Source of the DNA: Methylobacterium sp. | GTDB taxonomy: Bacteria; Pseudomonadota; Alphaproteobacteria; Rhizobiales; Beijerinckiaceae | Direction: 5' to 3' | Length of the DNA: 64,000 nucleotides | Assembly (NCBI GenBank): GCA_020252645.1 | Contig: JADCCN010000003.1 | Span: 1 to 64,000 of the forward strand | Part shown: positions 3,132 through 54,467 of the stretch, piece after piece | Numbering within the stretch: position 1 is the first letter of the stretch | How the letters are laid out: every line of letters begins with the position of its first letter | Made by a program: the position numbers and the translations under genes | The notes under the pieces: model-generated | The model's database searches: none | Seen by the model: the letters and a program-made list of their open reading frames with translations, nothing else | Told to the model about the DNA's origin: nothing

Positions 3132-3196
3132 CAACATGAGATAAAACAATAAGATAGAATACGGTTTTGATTCCACCAAAACGAGACGTGCTCTAG
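3092..3196. repeat. Palindromic repeat of a second subtype (TTTTGAT hairpin)
   Basis: It begins AGAGCATTCC and ends GTGCT-CTAG. Inside is a stretch TTTTGCGTAACAACATG and a hairpin TTTTGAT-TCC-ACCAAAA. The same subtype recurs at 54364-54467. The closing CTAG (3193-3196) contains the TAG stop of the minus-strand gene that ends at 3193. Confidence 0.75.
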
Positions 3197-3966
3197 GCTT
3201 TCCTCGCCCGCATCCGCGCGTGAAGGTCGCGCAGGAAGGGGATGGTCTCGAACTGGTCGGGCTGCACGGAATCCCAATCCACCCCCGCCGGGCGCGGCGC
3301 GACATTGCCGGTGCGGATGAGTTCGCTCTCCGTCGCGATGAAGTCGAGCGGGCTGTCATGCGCCTGCATCACCACGCGCGGCTCGGCGACGAGCTGGCTC
3401 GAATGGATGGTCGTGGCCATGGGCGTGCTGGGGCGGATGATGCCCAATTCGCGGAAAATGCCGGTTTCAAGGTCCGCAAAGCCCGCGCCCTTGCCCGTGC
3501 GCCCGCCCGACCGCGTGACCGCGACCGACCCGACCACGCAGAAATCCAGCGGCTCCACCGCCTCGAAATCGATGCGCTCGCCATGCATCATGTAGCCTTC
3601 GGAGGTCGCGGCGAGTTCGAAGCTCACGCCCTTCTCGCGCAGCCTTGCGGGGTCGATCCGCAGATACGGAAAACCTTCCGTGAGATAGGGCACGGGCGCA
3701 TAGAGAACCTTGCCATTGAGCAGCGCCCGCAGGCGCACGGGGATCTGCGGCGGATCGGGGTTGCATTTCACCGTCCGCGCGGCCTGCCATTCCGGCGTCT
3801 GCGCGAGACGCCAGGCGGCGAGATCCGCCCCGACGAAATTCGGGATGGCGCTCCAGACCGGGCCGACACCGAAGCCGCTTTTCTCCAGCTCCTGCCAGAC
3901 ATCCTCGCGCACGCGATCCTTCGTCTCGTTGCGCCCCGCCCAGCGGCCCTTGCGATCATCCGTCAT
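3193..3966 (-). CDS. 5-formyltetrahydrofolate cyclo-ligase-like protein
   Basis: The 257-residue protein has the MTHFS-type core: [14 protein letters not shown], a glycine-rich [13 protein letters not shown] nucleotide site and a late TTIHSSQLV block. True MTHFS enzymes convert 5-formyl-THF to methenyl-THF using ATP; many relatives in transporter operons have no proven substrate. The ATG at 3966 overlaps the stop of the hydrolase gene upstream (ATGA). It is the last gene of the BMP/biuret-type operon, and its TAG stop is supplied by a repeat boundary. Folate function is inferred from the family only. Confidence 0.8.
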
Positions 3967-4631
3967 GCCAGGGCCGCCTCGAAATCCGCGAGTTTCGCCG
4001 TCCAGCCGACAATGCCGCCCTGCGCGCGGATCATCGCAAGCGTCGCGGCCTTGAAGGCGGGGAAATAGCTTTCGGTCGCCTCCTCGATCAGCAGACATTC
4101 ATGGCCGCGATCATTCGCCTCGCGCATGGAGGTCTGCACGCAAACCTCCGTGGTGACCCCCGCGAAGACGAGATGCGTGATGCCCCTCGCCTCCAGCATG
4201 GCTTGAAGATCGGTGCGGTGGAAGGCGCCCTTCCCCGGCTTGTCGATCTCGATCTCGCCGGGAATGGGCGCGCATTCCGGCAGGATGGCGTTGCCCGCCT
4301 CGCCCTGCACGAGAATGCGCCCCATGGGCCCCCGATCGCCGATCCGCAGGCCCGGCGCGCCGCGCGAGAGCTTCGCGGGCGGGCAATCCGAAAGGTCGGG
4401 CCGGTGCGATTCCCGGGTATGGATCACCGGCCAGCCCCTCGCGCGGAACAGGGCGAGCAACCGCGCGACCGGCGCAATGGCGGGCCGCAGGGTCGAGACA
4501 TCGTTGCCGAGCGCTTCGCCGAACCCGCCGGGCTCGAGGAAATCGCGCTGCATGTCGATCACGATCAGCGCGGTGCGGCCCGGCGCCAGCGGGAAGGGGC
4601 CGGGCTCGGCGGGGATGGAAATCGCGGCCAT
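3963..4631 (-). CDS. Isochorismatase-family cysteine hydrolase, paralog of the BiuH-like protein
   Basis: 222 residues with the isochorismatase-like hydrolase triad D26 (VIDMQRDF), K131 (DKPGKGAF) and C164 ([16 protein letters not shown]). A glutamine matching the BiuH substrate residue is at Q204 (RAQGGIVG). It is clearly paralogous to the gene at 6160 but more diverged. Related enzymes hydrolyse biuret, triuret or ureidoacrylate; a triuret hydrolase role is a hypothesis based on pairing with a BiuH-like gene. The ATG at 4631 shares one base with the stop of the ABC ATPase gene (TGATG). Confidence 0.88.
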
Positions 4632-6163
4632 CAATGCCCTCCCCCGGCCATATGCGCGCCGATGGTCGCGCGGTCGGTTTTCCCGATCTCCTCGACATAG
4701 GTGATCTGCCCGCCGGACATCACCGCCACGCGATCCGAAAGCGAGAGGATTTCGTCCAGGTCCTCCGAGACGAGCAGAACCGCGGCACCCCGGTTGCGCT
4801 GATCCATGATCTGCGCGCGGATTTCCGCCACGGAGGCGAAATCGAGCCCGAAGCACGGATTGGCGACGATCAGCACCTCGACATCTCCCGAAAGTTCGCG
4901 TGCGAGCACGCTGCGCTGCACGTTGCCGCCCGAGAGCGCCGCGATGGGCGCATCGGGCGAGGGCGTCTTCACGCGGTATTTCGCGATGAGTTCTTCCGCC
5001 TGCTTCCGCATGGGCGCGGGCGAAAGCCAATATTTCAGCGAGGCGATGGGCGGCCGGTCAAACGAGCGGAAGGCCATGTTCTCCGCCACCGACATTTTCG
5101 GCACCGTGGCGTTCTTCAGCGGCTCCTCCGGCAGCCCGAACACCTTCAGGCGCGCCATGCTCGCGCGGTTCGGCAGGTAATCCTCGCCGTGGATGGCGAG
5201 CTGGCCGAACCGCATGGGGCGCTGGCCGGAAAGCACCTCCACCAGCGCGCTCTGGCCATTGCCGGAAACGCCGGCAATGCCCACGATCTCGCCGGCGCGG
5301 ATCTTCAGGTTGATCGCCTCAATGGCCGGGCGGCCGTCATCGGCATCCGCGAAGACCCCGGCAATGTCGAGCACCACGGGCCTGTTCTCGTGGGCCACCC
5401 GGTCGGCGCGCTCGCGGATGGGTGTGTCGCCGATCATCATCGCGGCCATGCTCTCCACCGGCGTCTCCTTCACCACGCCCCTTCCGGCGAAGGCACCCTT
5501 GCGCAGAACCGTGAGATCATCGGCGAAGGCCGTGACCTCGCGGAACTTGTGGGTGATCATCAGCACGGTCACCTCGCCGCGCCGGGTCATGTCGCGCAGC
5601 AGGCCGAGCACCTCATCCGCCTCGCCCGGGGTAAGCACGGAGGTCGGCTCGTCGAGGATGATGAAACGCTGGTCGAGATAGAGCTGCTTCAGGATTTCGA
5701 GCTTCTGCTTCTCGCCGGCCGAGAGCAGCGATACGGGCCGGTCGAGCGGCGCGCGGAAGGGCATGCGATCAAGGAAGGCCTCGAGCGCGCGATTTTCTTC
5801 CGCCCAGTGGATGACGGTCCGGCCATGCGGGCGCGAGACCACGAGGTTTTCAGCACCCGTGAGCGAAGGCACCAGCGTGAAATGCTGGTAGACCATGCCT
5901 ATCCCTGCTTCCGCCGCTTCCTTCGGGTTGCGGATGGCGCGCTCCATGCCATCCACCAGCACCTGCCCGGAATCGGGCTGGTAGAAACCCATGATGCATT
6001 TGACAAGCGTGGATTTGCCCGCGCCATTCTCGCCGAGCAGCGCATGGAAGGAGCCCGCCGGCACCTTCAGCGACACATCATCGAGCGCCACCAGCGCACC
6101 GAAGACCTTGCGCATGGCGATGGCTTCGAGGCCGATGGCGCGGCGGGCGGGCCCGGCGCTCAT
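4631..6163 (-). CDS. ABC transporter ATPase, double cassette (BMP/nucleoside-type importer)
   Basis: 510 residues with two ATP-binding cassettes, as in sugar- and nucleoside-type importers. The first has Walker [10 protein letters not shown], signature [12 protein letters not shown] and Walker [14 protein letters not shown]. The second keeps [12 protein letters not shown] as its P-loop-like motif and the signature [16 protein letters not shown], with a degenerate Walker B ending NPCFGLD, which is usual in this family. The ATG at 6163 overlaps the BiuH-like gene stop (ATGA). It energises the permease pair at 6849-8896. Confidence 0.93.
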
Positions 6164-6837
6164 GGCAGGCCTGCGATCAGCATGGCGGAATTGCCCACCG
6201 CCCCGAACACCCCGCCCTGCATCTTCACCATCTTGATCGCGGCGTCGTGGTTGCCCTTTTCGGTTGCGCCGCAGCAATCCTCCAGCAGCAGGCATTCAAA
6301 GCCACGATCATTCGCCTCGCGCATGGTGGTGTGCACGCAGACATCGGTGGTGATGCCGGTGAGGATGATGTTCTGGATGCCGCGCTGGCGCAGGATCATT
6401 TCAAGGTCGGTCGCGCAGAAGGAGCCCTTGCCCGGCTTGTCGATGATGGTCTCGCCCGGCAGCGGCGCGAGTTCCTCGATGATCTCCCAGCCGGGTTCGC
6501 CGCGCACGAGGATCTTTCCGCACGGGCCGGGATCGCCGATGCCGGCACCGATGCGCTGCGAGCGCCAGCGCTTGTTCGCCGGCAGATCGGAAAGATCGGG
6601 CCGGTGCCCCTCGCGGGTATGGATGATCCAGTAGCCCCTGGCGCGCATCGCTTCGAGCACGCGGCGGATGGGCGCGATCGGCGCGCGGGTGAGCGAAAGG
6701 TCATAGCCCATCGCATCGACATAGCCGCCCTTGCCGCAGAAATCGGTCTGCATGTCGATCACGATCAGCGCCGTATTCGCGGGGCTGAAGGCGCCGTTCC
6801 ACGGCCATGGATAGGGATCGGCGGGCAGCGTGGGCAT
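6160..6837 (-). CDS. biuH: Probable biuret amidohydrolase (isochorismatase-like fold)
   Basis: 225 residues with triad D28 ([14 protein letters not shown]), K134 ([13 protein letters not shown]) and C167 ([17 protein letters not shown]), plus Q207 (KMQGGVFG). The spacing equals that recalled for Rhizobium leguminosarum BiuH (D36, K142, C175, Q215), shifted by 8, and long stretches read as near-identical from memory. BiuH hydrolyses biuret to allophanate and ammonia. The ATG at 6837 is chosen because GAGGAAA lies 6 bases upstream; a GTG at 6852 overlapping the permease stop is the alternative. No allophanate hydrolase or cyanuric acid hydrolase gene is in the window. Confidence 0.82.
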
Positions 6838-6848
6838 TGCGTCTTTCC

Positions 6849-7772
6849 TCACCGCGTGAGTGCCAATTCGCCCGGTGCATCCCGCAGCGCCTTCTTCGAG
6901 CCGGCCGAGCCGATCATCAGGAAAAGCGTGAGGATGTAGGGAGCGGCGTTGAAGAAATAATAGCCTTGCGTGATGCCGATGGCCTGCAGGGAGGGGCCGA
7001 GCGCTCCCGCAGCACCGAAGAGCATCGCGGCGTAAAGGCAGCGGATGGGGTCCCAGCGCGCGAAAATCACCAGGGCCACGGCCATCAGCCCCTGCCCCGA
7101 GGAGAGGCCCTCGTTCCAGCTTCCGGGATAGTAGAGCGAGAGGAAAGCCCCGCCGATGCCCGCGAGGAAGCCGCCGGCGGCCGTTGCCATCAGGCGGATC
7201 AGCATCACGGGATGGCCCAACGCTCGCGCGGCGGCCTCGCTGTCGCCCGTGACCCGCAGGATGAGGCCGGGCCGCGTGTTCTTCAGCGCCCAGGCGAGGA
7301 AGAACGCGAGCGCAATCCCGATGAGGAAGAGCGGGTTGATCTCAAGGGCCTGCTCGATCTGCGGGTTGCTGCTCCAGAAGCCGAGCGGAATCGAGCCCAG
7401 GCGCGGCGCGGTGGGCTGGATATAGGCCTTGCCGAGAAAGAACGCGATGCCGAGGCCGAAGAGCATCAGCGCGATGCCCACGGCGATGTCGTTCACCTTC
7501 GGCAGCCGGCAGATCAGCGCGTGGAGCGTGCCCATCATCATCCCCGCGAAGCCCGCCACGAGCAGGCCCAGCCAGGGCGAACCCGTGTGATAGGAGATCG
7601 CATAGCCGCTCATCGCGCCGAGCACGAGCGTGCCTTCGAGCCCGAGATTGATGCGGCCCGAACGCTCGGTCAGCATCTCGCCCAGCGCCACGAACAGGAA
7701 GGGCGTCGAGACGCGGATCGCGCCGCCGATCATCGCCGCGAGAACCGTCACGAGGGCCGAAGAGCCATCCAT
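6849..7772 (-). CDS. ABC transporter permease (BPD_transp_2 family)
   Basis: 307 residues, hydrophobic with about eight to ten membrane segments. The family signature near the N-terminus, [13 protein letters not shown], is typical of the second permease of BMP-type nucleoside importers. The C-terminal part has the usual [20 protein letters not shown] segment. Start ATG 7772 shares a base with the stop of the partner permease (TGATG). It forms the membrane channel with the protein encoded at 7772-8896. Confidence 0.93.
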
Positions 7773-8896
7773 CAGGTGCGCTCCGTCCGGGCGGCGGGGT
7801 TGAACAGGCGGAAGCGGCCATAGAGCGTTTCGCTCGCGAGCAGCACGAGGAAGGTCATGCCCTGCAGAAGCAGCACGCTTGCATCCGGCAGGCCCATGCG
7901 GCGCTGGATGATGCCGCCCGCCGCCGCGATGCCGCCGAACAATATCGCCACCGGAATGATCGCCAGCGGGTTATGCCGCGCGAGAAACGCCACGAGAATG
8001 CCGGTGAAGCCGTAGCCGGCGGCCAGCGAGGCATTCGCCTTGCCATGCACGGCCGCGACCTCGAAATAGCCCGCGAGACCGGCGCAGAGCCCCGCGATCA
8101 TCGAGGCGCTGACGATCAGCCTCCCCACCGGCAGGCCCTGCGCGAGCGCGGCGCGCGCATTGCCCCCGGCGATGCGGCAGGCAAAGCCATAGGTCGTGCG
8201 CTGCATCAGCACATGGAGCAGGATGCAGGCGAGCACCGCGACCGCAAGGCCCCAATGCACATCGATGCCCGGCATCTTGCCGATCATCGCCTCGCTGCCG
8301 ATCGCCCTGGTCGAGGGCTTGTTCGGGTCGGCGGGGTCGCGCAGCGCGCCTTCGACGAAAAAGTTCATGATCGCGATGGCGATGTAGGAAAGCAGCAGGG
8401 TGGAGATCGTCTCGTTCACGCCGCGATGATGGCGCAGGCCGCCCGCGATCCCGATCCAGATCGCGCCGATGGCCATCGCGGCGATCAGCATCAGCGCATG
8501 CATCAGCACCGGGTTCGTGGTGCCGATCAGCGGCACGGCCATGGCGGCCGCCGCGAACCCGCCGAGCACGAGCGCCCCCTCGCCGCCGATCATCGTGAGG
8601 CCGAGCCGCGCGGGGATCGCCACCGCCAACGCCATCAGCATCAGCGGGGCGGCGCGCAGCAGGGTGTTCGACCACGAGAACGGCGTGCCGAACCCGCCGA
8701 GCCAGATGAGGCTGTAGAACTGGACCGGCGATTTACCGAGGATCAGCAGGAAGATGGAGAACAAGCCGGCCGAAATCACCAGCGCCAGCAGCGGGATCGC
8801 CAAGGCCTCCGCCCCGCGCCGGAGGCGCGCGAGGCGCTCGCGGCCGATGCGGCCTGCCGCGGCAGGGCCGGCGGGGATGGAAACGGGCTGGTTCAT
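7772..8896 (-). CDS. ABC transporter permease (BPD_transp_2 family)
   Basis: 374 residues with a polar N-terminus of about 30 residues and then roughly ten hydrophobic segments. Family marks include ARLGLTMIGGEGALVLGGF and the conserved loop HRGVNETISTLLLSYIA. The ATG at 8896 is preferred to an upstream TTG at 8914. It pairs with the permease at 6849 in the BMP-type importer; the solute is unknown but may be a ureide such as biuret, given the two hydrolases in the operon. Confidence 0.92.
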   Translation of the reverse strand: MNQPVSIPAGPAAAGRIGRERLARLRRGAEALAIPLLALVISAGLFSIFLLILGKSPVQFYSLIWLGGFGTPFSWSNTLLRAAPLMLMALAVAIPARLGLTMIGGEGALVLGGFAAAAMAVPLIGTTNPVLMHALMLIAAMAIGAIWIGIAGGLRHHRGVNETISTLLLSYIAIAIMNFFVEGALRDPADPNKPSTRAIGSEAMIGKMPGIDVHWGLAVAVLACILLHVLMQRTTYGFACRIAGGNARAALAQGLPVGRLIVSASMIAGLCAGLAGYFEVAAVHGKANASLAAGYGFTGILVAFLARHNPLAIIPVAILFGGIAAAGGIIQRRMGLPDASVLLLQGMTFLVLLASETLYGRFRLFNPAARTERT

Positions 8897-8936
8897 GGCG
8901 ATCGACCCCCGCAACGGGCGCGGCCCTGCGCCTCGC

Positions 8937-10055
8937 TCAGGTGATGGAGCCGACCACCCCCTCCGCGAGGAAGTTCATGCCGTCGAGCACGCGATCGAAA
9001 TTGTCGTAGCTCGCATTGGGCAGCACCACATTGCCCTTGTTGTCCTTCACCGGGCCCCGGATGATCGGCTTGTTGGCCTTGAGATCGGCAATCGCCGCCT
9101 CGGCCGCCTTGCGCGCGGGCTCCTCGGCGCCGGCCCCGAAGGCGGTGTTGCGCACCATGTCCCGGTCATAGCCGCCGAACACCATGTTCGGCACCGTCTG
9201 GCCCTTGGCGATCGCCTCGGCGAAGATCCTGTAGATCGTCTCCCACTTGTATTCCGCGCCGGTGATGAAGCCCTTCGGCGCCAGCGGCGCCTGGCTCGCA
9301 TTATGGCCCAGCGACCTGATGCCCCGGCGCTCGGCGGTCTCGATCACCACCTTCGGGCTGTCCACATGGCAGGTGAGGATGTCGCAGCCCGCGCCGATAA
9401 GCGCATTCGCGGCTTCCGCCTCGCGCACGGGCAAAGCCCAGTCCCCGGTGAAGATCACCTGCAGCGTGGCGTTCGGGTTCACCGAGCGCGCGCCCCAGAG
9501 CACCGAGTTGATGTTGCGCAGCACGCTGGAAATGGGCTTTGCGGCCACGAAGCCGATCTTGTTCGTCCGGGTGGAAAGGCCCGCCGCGACGCCGTTCACG
9601 TAATGCGCCTGATCGAGATAGCCGAAATAGCTGCCGGCATTGTCCGGGTGCTTGCCCTTCTCCCAGAGCGGGGCGGCATGGCGCAGGGTGACCTTGGGAT
9701 ACTTCTTCGCCACATCCACCATGAAGGGGTTGAAATAGCCGAAGGAGGTCGCAAGGATAAGGTTCGCCCCTTCGAGATTGATCATGGATTCCATGGATTT
9801 CGCCACGGCGGCCGTTTCCGGCACGTTCTCTTCCTCGATGATCTTCACGCCCGGCGTGGCCTTGAGCACGCCGATGGAGACCGCATGCGCCTGGTTCCAG
9901 CCGAAATCATCCTTCGGGCCGACATAGACGATGCCGATCGTCACGCCCGATTGGGCGCGTGCGAGGCTCGGAAAGCCAAGGGCTGCGGCGGCCGTGCCCG
10001 CGGCGGCGCCTTGCAGGAATGAGCGGCGGGAAAAGCGATCGAACGGCATGGACAT
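8937..10055 (-). CDS. BMP-family ABC transporter substrate-binding protein
   Basis: 372 residues; a Tat-like signal peptide (RFSRRSFLQG, cleavage after SLARA) is followed by a BMP/PnrA-type binding domain (IGIVYVGPKDDFGWNQAH). Relatives bind nucleosides or other heterocycles. It is the first gene of the operon running down to 3193. Two ATGs at 10055 and 10049 are possible; AGGGAG is 8 bases before the second. The 220 bases upstream contain no further gene and should hold the promoter, but no convincing -35/-10 pair or RutR-type site was seen. Confidence 0.93.
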   Translation of the reverse strand: MSMPFDRFSRRSFLQGAAAGTAAAALGFPSLARAQSGVTIGIVYVGPKDDFGWNQAHAVSIGVLKATPGVKIIEEENVPETAAVAKSMESMINLEGANLILATSFGYFNPFMVDVAKKYPKVTLRHAAPLWEKGKHPDNAGSYFGYLDQAHYVNGVAAGLSTRTNKIGFVAAKPISSVLRNINSVLWGARSVNPNATLQVIFTGDWALPVREAEAANALIGAGCDILTCHVDSPKVVIETAERRGIRSLGHNASQAPLAPKGFITGAEYKWETIYRIFAEAIAKGQTVPNMVFGGYDRDMVRNTAFGAGAEEPARKAAEAAIADLKANKPIIRGPVKDNKGNVVLPNASYDNFDRVLDGMNFLAEGVVGSIT

Positions 10056-10275
10056 GGCTCCCTGGAGCAGATCGCCAGCGCGAGCGGCTGGCTGGTCTGA
10101 CAGGCAAAGCAACGGTTGTGCCAGCCGCTTCCCCACCCGGTGAAGGCTGTGTTCGCCGGGCCTGCATGCGGCACCGCGGAAAGAATTCGCCCCGCCGCGT
10201 TGCCTGCAATTTGGCGAGGCCTGCCTATCGCAGCACGCCGTTGCACATTTGATGAGCAGGTTCTTCAGGCCGACC

Positions 10276-54363: not shown

Positions 54364-54467
54364 GAGCATGCTCTCGCAAAAGCGGATACCGGTTTTGCGT
54401 AACAACATGCGACAAAACAATAGAAGAGAGCTCGGTTTTGATTCCATCAAAACGAGGCGTATTCTAG
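54364..54467. repeat. Palindromic repeat, TTTTGAT subtype, second copy
   Basis: It begins CTAG-AGCATGCTCTCGC and contains CCGGTTTTGCGTAACAACATG and the hairpin GTTTTGAT-TCC-ATCAAAAC. It ends at a CTAG (54464-54467) that it shares with the next element. It is related to the repeat at 3092. Confidence 0.75.

Follow-up and report, generated by a model that had tools for sequence, protein, structure and literature searches.

Gene clusters for the breakdown of triuret and biuret, both of which are impurities of urea fertiliser (PMC7948467, PMC7700744), have been described before, and it was through such clusters that the triuret hydrolase TrtA was discovered, according to PMC7948467. The locus reported here is a seven-gene operon at 3193..10055, on the minus strand, of a 64,000-nucleotide stretch of Methylobacterium sp. 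DNA (contig JADCCN010000003.1, positions 1 to 64,000; the window), taken from a genome of 3.05 Mb, and we interpret it, with good but incomplete confidence, as a nitrogen-scavenging operon for the uptake and breakdown of biuret- and triuret-like compounds. The Herbaspirillum trtA/biuH/atzF operon (PMC7948467) has the same two hydrolases and the same pathway, and the nitrifier trtA-biuH-trtB-atzF-bmpA-nupABC clusters (PMC12625717) share the hydrolases, the pathway and the importer type; in both, atzF lies within the cluster, whereas in the window genome it lies outside the operon. Rhizobium johnstonii (leguminosarum) 3841 pRL10, the source of BiuH, shows the same order of BMP-type binding protein, permease, permease, BiuH, ATPase and TrtA, and also has an exact sigma-54 motif upstream. 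It differs in having a formamidase and the cyanuric acid hydrolase AtzD inside the operon and a cupin gene after TrtA, AtzD being here on another contig; moreover, its binding pocket is of class Q (defined below) and it lacks the 5-formyltetrahydrofolate cyclo-ligase (5-FCL)-like gene, whereas the window has class W and this gene. The 24.7 kb examined of the Rhizobium locus (L091) showed no allophanate hydrolase, either by annotation or by match; PMC7948467 credits this Rhizobium species with an operon of TrtA, BiuH and AtzF. The operon type is therefore not new, since Rhizobium 3841 has the layout and the nitrifier clusters have been printed (PMC12625717). An earlier note on the window, made from the letters alone, had suggested that the BMP importer may carry ureides, as a ligand class not known for it; an association of biuH and trtA with an importer of this type is already in print (PMC12625717). 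The sigma-54 promoter, the two pocket classes and the linkage of the 5-FCL-like gene were not found in the literature searched, which covered few subscription papers; these features bear on the imported ureide, on alphaproteobacterial nitrogen control and on the reaction of an enzyme family.

All seven genes were found where the earlier note had placed them, with the two isochorismatase-fold hydrolase genes flanking that of the ATPase. They are tightly packed, four of the junctions overlapping by 1 or 4 bases, have no internal stops, and show coding-type third-position guanine-plus-cytosine fractions of 0.85-0.91 throughout. The first gene (8937..10055) encodes a BMP/PnrA-like substrate-binding protein (Pfam Bmp, 101.5 bits; PDB relatives 3s99 and AtzT, 6pi5) with a twin-arginine translocation signal above cut-off. 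It is followed by the genes of two ABC permeases, at 7772..8896 and 6849..7772 (Pfam BPD_transp_2, 100.9 and 119.5 bits), the putative biuret amidohydrolase BiuH (6160..6837; start at the ATG at 6837, with the GTG at 6852 as an alternative), the importer ATPase with two ABC domains (4631..6163; two Pfam ABC_tran stretches), the putative triuret hydrolase TrtA (3963..4631) and the 5-FCL-like paralog (3193..3966; Pfam 5-FTHF_cyc-lig, 56.6 bits). Among the matches listed, the closest relatives of the operon are in Rhabdaerophilum sp. SD176 (L011) and in a metagenome-assembled genome labelled Beijerinckiaceae (L012), with binding proteins 92% identical to that of the window.

The two hydrolases were compared with their characterized relatives by score, by individual residues and by phylogeny. 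The first scored 422.2 bits (E 3.8e-127) against the NCBIfam BiuH model NF050097, above the equivalog cut-off of 370, and was 82% identical over 222 residues (E 7.9e-129) to PDB entry 6azo, whereas the second fell below the same cut-off (250.6 vs 370 bits), as expected for TrtA, and had as its top PDB match 6xix (302 bits, E 2.9e-89, 65% identity over 218 residues); 6azo is BiuH and 6xix is TrtA, as given in PMC7948467. The same source lists the active-site residues of TrtA and those that separate triuret from biuret use, from which 13 positions were taken, the TrtA-type set being F35, N41, E160, Y187, I205 and A134 together with the shared active site. At all 13, the second hydrolase is identical to 6xix and the first to 6azo. 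Among alignment rows labelled BiuH or TrtA by best match, with a few duplicates and the copies from the window itself among them, 68 of 77 BiuH-labelled and 53 of 85 TrtA-labelled rows are exact at all 13 positions; the A134 position is variable, and when it is left aside the pattern is kept in 74/77 and 84/85 rows, respectively. A tree built from 40 of the 167 rows, with bootstrap not settled and long outgroup branches, groups the window proteins with the BiuH and TrtA references at supports of 92/84 and 92/99, below the near-certain mark, and forcing the second hydrolase to the BiuH side was rejected (approximately unbiased test, p-AU 0.012). The residues named in the earlier note were also correct, namely Asp28, Lys134, Cys167 and Gln207 in the first hydrolase, counted from the ATG at 6837, and Asp26, Lys131, Cys164 and Gln204 in the second, as were the positions that it gave for BiuH, the triad Asp36, Lys142 and Cys175 with Gln215 (PMC5806882). 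Overall, its proposals of a BiuH-like and a triuret-type enzyme are well borne out by sequence, residues and tree, in which both proteins fall with the BiuH and TrtA references, and the corresponding activities are predicted for them.

The gene set recurs in related loci. A TrtA scan of genome contigs gave at least 567 confirmed places, of which the best 80 loci were kept for all TrtA-locus counts, and 66 of these have more than 7 kb of upstream sequence. In those 66, both permeases and the ATPase are always present, the binding protein is found in 65 (that of L051 is split) and BiuH in 64, being missing from L013 and L025; the order of binding protein, permease, permease, BiuH, ATPase and TrtA holds in 63/63 loci having every gene. 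L013 and L014, which are close relatives of the window operon, have the importer and TrtA with no BiuH gene in the stretch. In the reverse direction, 385 sampled genomes of the class yielded, apart from the window, 29 places carrying a close relative of the binding protein, near which BiuH was found 26 times, TrtA 20 times and the 5-FCL-like gene twice; two of the three places without BiuH run to a contig end (L178, L182), and at the third, L183, the relative is a second copy with about 46% identity. With biuH near 26 of its 29 sampled relatives, the importer thus has BiuH as its foremost partner. Two other genomes of the window's genus and others of its family gave no close match in the class sample and in the searches with the 5-FCL-like protein, and the operon is therefore accessory.

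The binding pocket was mapped on that of AtzT (PMC6834077) in 102 rows, counting the window itself, a small number of duplicate loci and two distant ones, L093 and L183. The window protein, with a mean predicted local distance difference test (pLDDT) score of 88.9 for its AlphaFold model, has W53, S104, F105, S177, N181, W206, H230 and D232 in the pocket. Two main classes were found besides a few deviating rows: class W, that of the window, reads W or Y, S, F, H, S/T/I, N, W, H, D, and class Q reads Y, S, F, mostly Q, Q, N, W, H, D. AtzT (6pi5) and the Brucella protein 3s99 belong to the same BMP family and have most of the pocket frame in common with the window protein, the aromatic sandwich and most polar positions being retained relative to AtzT; the window protein differs in falling in a separate clade and in having Ser in place of Glu165. 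Indeed, this glutamate, which contacts guanine in AtzT (PMC6834077), is replaced in 102/102 rows by Gln, Ser, Thr, Ile or Ala, and for the guanine-contact set Y45, S97, F98, E165, W194, N218 and N220 the window has W, S, F, S, W, H and D. With the sandwich kept and Glu165 gone, the pocket therefore argues for a planar ligand other than guanine; this may be biuret, triuret or a planar ureide similar to these. No measured ligand for a BiuH-linked importer was found in the literature searched. Transport of vitamin B6 was rejected, since the 'putative B6 ABC transporter' subunits, the nearest NCBIfam models, leave all four importer proteins far under cut-off (37/400, 191/400, 140/465 and 415/670 bits).

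Upstream of the operon, sequences were matched to what we take to be the sigma-54 and NtrC consensus. The motif TGGCACAACCGTTGCT (10108..10123, minus strand), which begins 68 bases before the start codon of the binding protein, is an exact match to the sigma-54 (-24/-12) consensus and the sole one in the 64 kb, where 0.04 would be expected. Among relatives, the motif upstream of the binding protein gene is exact in 25/96 and within one mismatch in 33 more (58/96), and in 56 of these 58 its start lies 45-111 bases ahead of the gene. The set contains a few duplicates, and related loci do not count as independent; the control, made of the regions upstream of TrtA in the same loci, has the same relatedness and gave 0/85 within one mismatch. 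Markov-sampled sequences reached a match in 0.3%. The motif is found in 31/39 relatives with a binding protein at least 60% identical to that of the window and in 27/58 below 60%, mainly class Q, and is rare outside the alphaproteobacteria (betaproteobacteria 2/13, gammaproteobacteria 0/2). The conserved motif before the first gene thus points to a sigma-54-dependent promoter. RpoN and NtrC are both encoded in the genome, over their cut-offs, and the operon is probably switched on by nitrogen limitation; a search of the literature for biuret, sigma54 and NtrC gave no title on this operon. A possible NtrC-like dyad, TGCTCATCAAATGTGCA (10242..10258, minus strand; one mismatch to TGCAC-N7-GTGCA), was not relied on as regulatory evidence, the enrichment of such sites within two mismatches being too weak (27/97 relatives vs 8/85 control regions).

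The remaining enzymes of the pathway were located on another contig, C4, of the same genome. The earlier note had suggested looking for atzF outside the window, and the allophanate hydrolase AtzF is indeed there at 771 bits (cut-off 511), along with AtzD (566 bits, cut-off 360), an AtzE-family amidase (677 bits, cut-off 461) and an AtzH-like match that is 67% identical to a Roseibium protein passing the HpxZ cut-off. The triuret degradation set of trtA, biuH, importer and atzF is thus complete in one genome, with atzF on a different contig, and given AtzF, AtzD, the AtzE-family amidase and the AtzH-like protein, triuret, biuret and probably cyanuric acid should be degradable to ammonia. We propose that a shortage of nitrogen would lead RpoN, together with NtrC or a similar activator, to transcribe the operon from the -24/-12 promoter, and that the BMP-type importer would take up biuret, triuret or a related planar ureide. 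TrtA would then convert triuret to carboxybiuret, which would give biuret, spontaneously or via a decarboxylase, or be consumed by an AtzE-type amidase; BiuH would convert biuret to allophanate, and AtzF on the other contig would release ammonia and CO2 from the latter, the degradation steps following PMC7948467 and PMC6219798. The four C4 genes are clustered in one locus (L156, G000:C4:35016-49500, outside the window), which further holds two amidohydrolases, one just over the allantoinase cut-off (364.6 vs 357.9), NMT1-type binding proteins with a permease and an ATPase, a short-chain dehydrogenase/reductase (SDR) and a LOG-like protein, and is possibly a second ureide or triazine locus.

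The last gene of the operon had been described in the earlier note as MTHFS-like with no evident role, which needs correction, since it recurs alongside one importer class and is probably not a 5-FCL. Its product (AlphaFold mean pLDDT 86.5) passes the cut-off of Pfam 5-FTHF_cyc-lig while scoring 19.8 bits against 84.9 for the 5-FCL equivalog TIGR02727, and another member of the Pfam family is encoded on contig C6 (101 bits), which makes a housekeeping 5-FCL unlikely. Its alignment retrieved no convincing PDB match (best E 0.045). The gene is rare, being found in 14/385 class genomes at E 1e-30, of which three, the window's included, are at least 64% identical, and in 2/398 genomes of the phylum sample at 1e-50. 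It lies inside the operon in 16 of the best 80 TrtA loci, its match 6-66 bases from the neighbouring matches, usually after the AtzE-like gene or TrtA and before the AtzH-like gene; three other loci, L111, L112 and L188, have BiuH but no TrtA, and there it comes after the ATPase. It accompanies 19/34 class W rows (15/30 without four rows fetched through the gene itself), 0/39 class Q rows and one distant importer (L093). On an importer tree of 60 rows, 22 of them with the gene and class Q reduced to one third, it switches between presence and absence six times or more, and since the closest importer relatives of the window, L011-L014, lack it, it was either gained in the window or lost in those relatives. 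We conclude that in one lineage of these operons it genuinely belongs to the gene set, and the repeated linkage suggests a functional tie between the protein and the importer. Group B homologues, which are 36-41% identical (11 loci, L113-L123, 10-19.5 kb), had no BMP relative nearby, and neither the archaeal (L189) nor the Amycolatopsis (L094) homologue had telling neighbours; six of the seven plasmid records with a match were examined (H6 left out). A role as the carboxybiuret decarboxylase TrtB is unlikely, since an AtzH-like gene directly adjoins in 15 of the 16 TrtA loci having the 5-FCL-like gene, and the Herbaspirillum locus L077 has the former without the latter. By family and by context, we take the protein to be a putative member of the COG0212 type, which is a thiamin-associated paralog of the 5-FCL family likewise under the equivalog cut-off; one relative of the window gene adjoins thiamin genes, whereas the window gene sits in a ureide operon. 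Speculatively, the protein could perform an ATP-dependent step of ureide use, on a formylated or carboxylated ureide brought in by this importer class; if so, this would be the first substrate lead for the COG0212-type family, whose association with thiamin could then be traced to a shared planar-amide ligand. The term 'cyclo-ligase' does not occur in the main texts of PMC7948467 and PMC12625717, nor '5-formyl' in that of PMC12625717.

Several observations weigh against uptake and breakdown of biuret and triuret as the function of the operon. The ligand of the importer and the activities of the enzymes are deduced from sequence, and purines are the ligands of the nearest BMP relatives of known structure (PMC6834077; 3s99). 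Two loci, L095 and L186, have this importer class but neither BiuH nor TrtA. As to nitrogen control, 38/96 relatives have no sigma-54 motif within one mismatch, among them 11/13 betaproteobacteria, and an ntrC mutant of Burkholderia cenocepacia, a strain that may or may not carry the operon, grew better on biuret (PMC5491218). One rival explanation is that the importer carries a heterocycle, such as a purine, an oxidised purine or cyanuric acid, with BiuH and TrtA processing only linear ureides that arise from it later. AtzT, with which the pocket shares its sandwich and most polar positions, has affinities of 110 nM for guanine and 360 nM for ammeline (PMC6834077), and among the best 80 TrtA loci AtzD occurs in 15, mostly within the operon, and an amidohydrolase akin to the L042 8-oxoguanine deaminase (which itself scores 634 bits, cut-off 532) in 10. 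Since, however, Glu165 is replaced in every row, and biuH is the constant partner of the importer whereas AtzD and the deaminase are not, we regard this as a minority possibility.

Another explanation would be that the importer and the 5-FCL-like gene form a thiamin-pyrimidine salvage module that shares the operon by chance. In its favour, the Roseicitreum plasmid pRA01 (L186) carries a LysR gene, the 5-FCL-like gene, the BMP gene, two permease genes and the ATPase gene, without BiuH or TrtA, beside a thiamin cluster of thiD, thiS, thiazole synthase, thiamine phosphate synthase, TenA and an importer; in addition, a plant COG0212 protein, the reaction of which is not known, is thiamin-linked and was unable to replace 5-FCL (PMC3223725, PMC4120688, PMC5041015). 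Nevertheless, the binding proteins of this plasmid and of a Roseinatronobacter plasmid (L095), which likewise pairs the gene with a class W type importer without the hydrolases, are nested among the BiuH/TrtA-linked ones and the sigma-54 motif is absent, so that the thiamin context looks derived; the 5-FCL-like proteins of both plasmids lie outside the window's clade. Considering also that the 5-FCL-like gene is missing from the neighbourhood of 15 of the 34 class W importers and of every one of the 39 in class Q, a salvage module of this kind seems quite improbable. Comparably doubtful is that the second hydrolase acts on a ureide other than triuret, such as guanylurea or ureidoacrylate. Guanylurea hydrolases do belong to the same family, with up to 65% identity to other members (PMC9800807), and none was included in the hydrolase tree; on the other hand, the second hydrolase shares all 13 residues with TrtA and groups with it, is 65% identical to TrtA as opposed to 34% to RutB, and belongs to a type whose loci contain BiuH in 64 of the 66 with enough upstream sequence.

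Scavenging of biuret- and triuret-like nitrogen remains our preferred reading, and a few further features of the loci and of the window may be recorded. In several class W loci, either the 8-oxoguanine deaminase gene (L042:869-2203) or a 2-oxoglutarate-dioxygenase-like gene (L039:2193-3161, recognized by eye and with no NCBIfam match) precedes that of the binding protein, hinting at a link to oxidised purines in these loci. In several betaproteobacteria (L040, L055, L063, L066, L044, L077), an additional ABC importer, whose binding protein was judged by eye to be NMT1/THI5-like, lies between BiuH and the ATPase or ahead of the operon. Within the window, a 64-base tandem repeat and its inverted copies (14-188 and 1818-1927) flank a MoaA-like gene, also assigned by eye, and a 20-base sequence directly after the operon (3162-3181) recurs with one mismatch at 54433-54452, where the expected number is 0, and is possibly a dispersed intergenic repeat.

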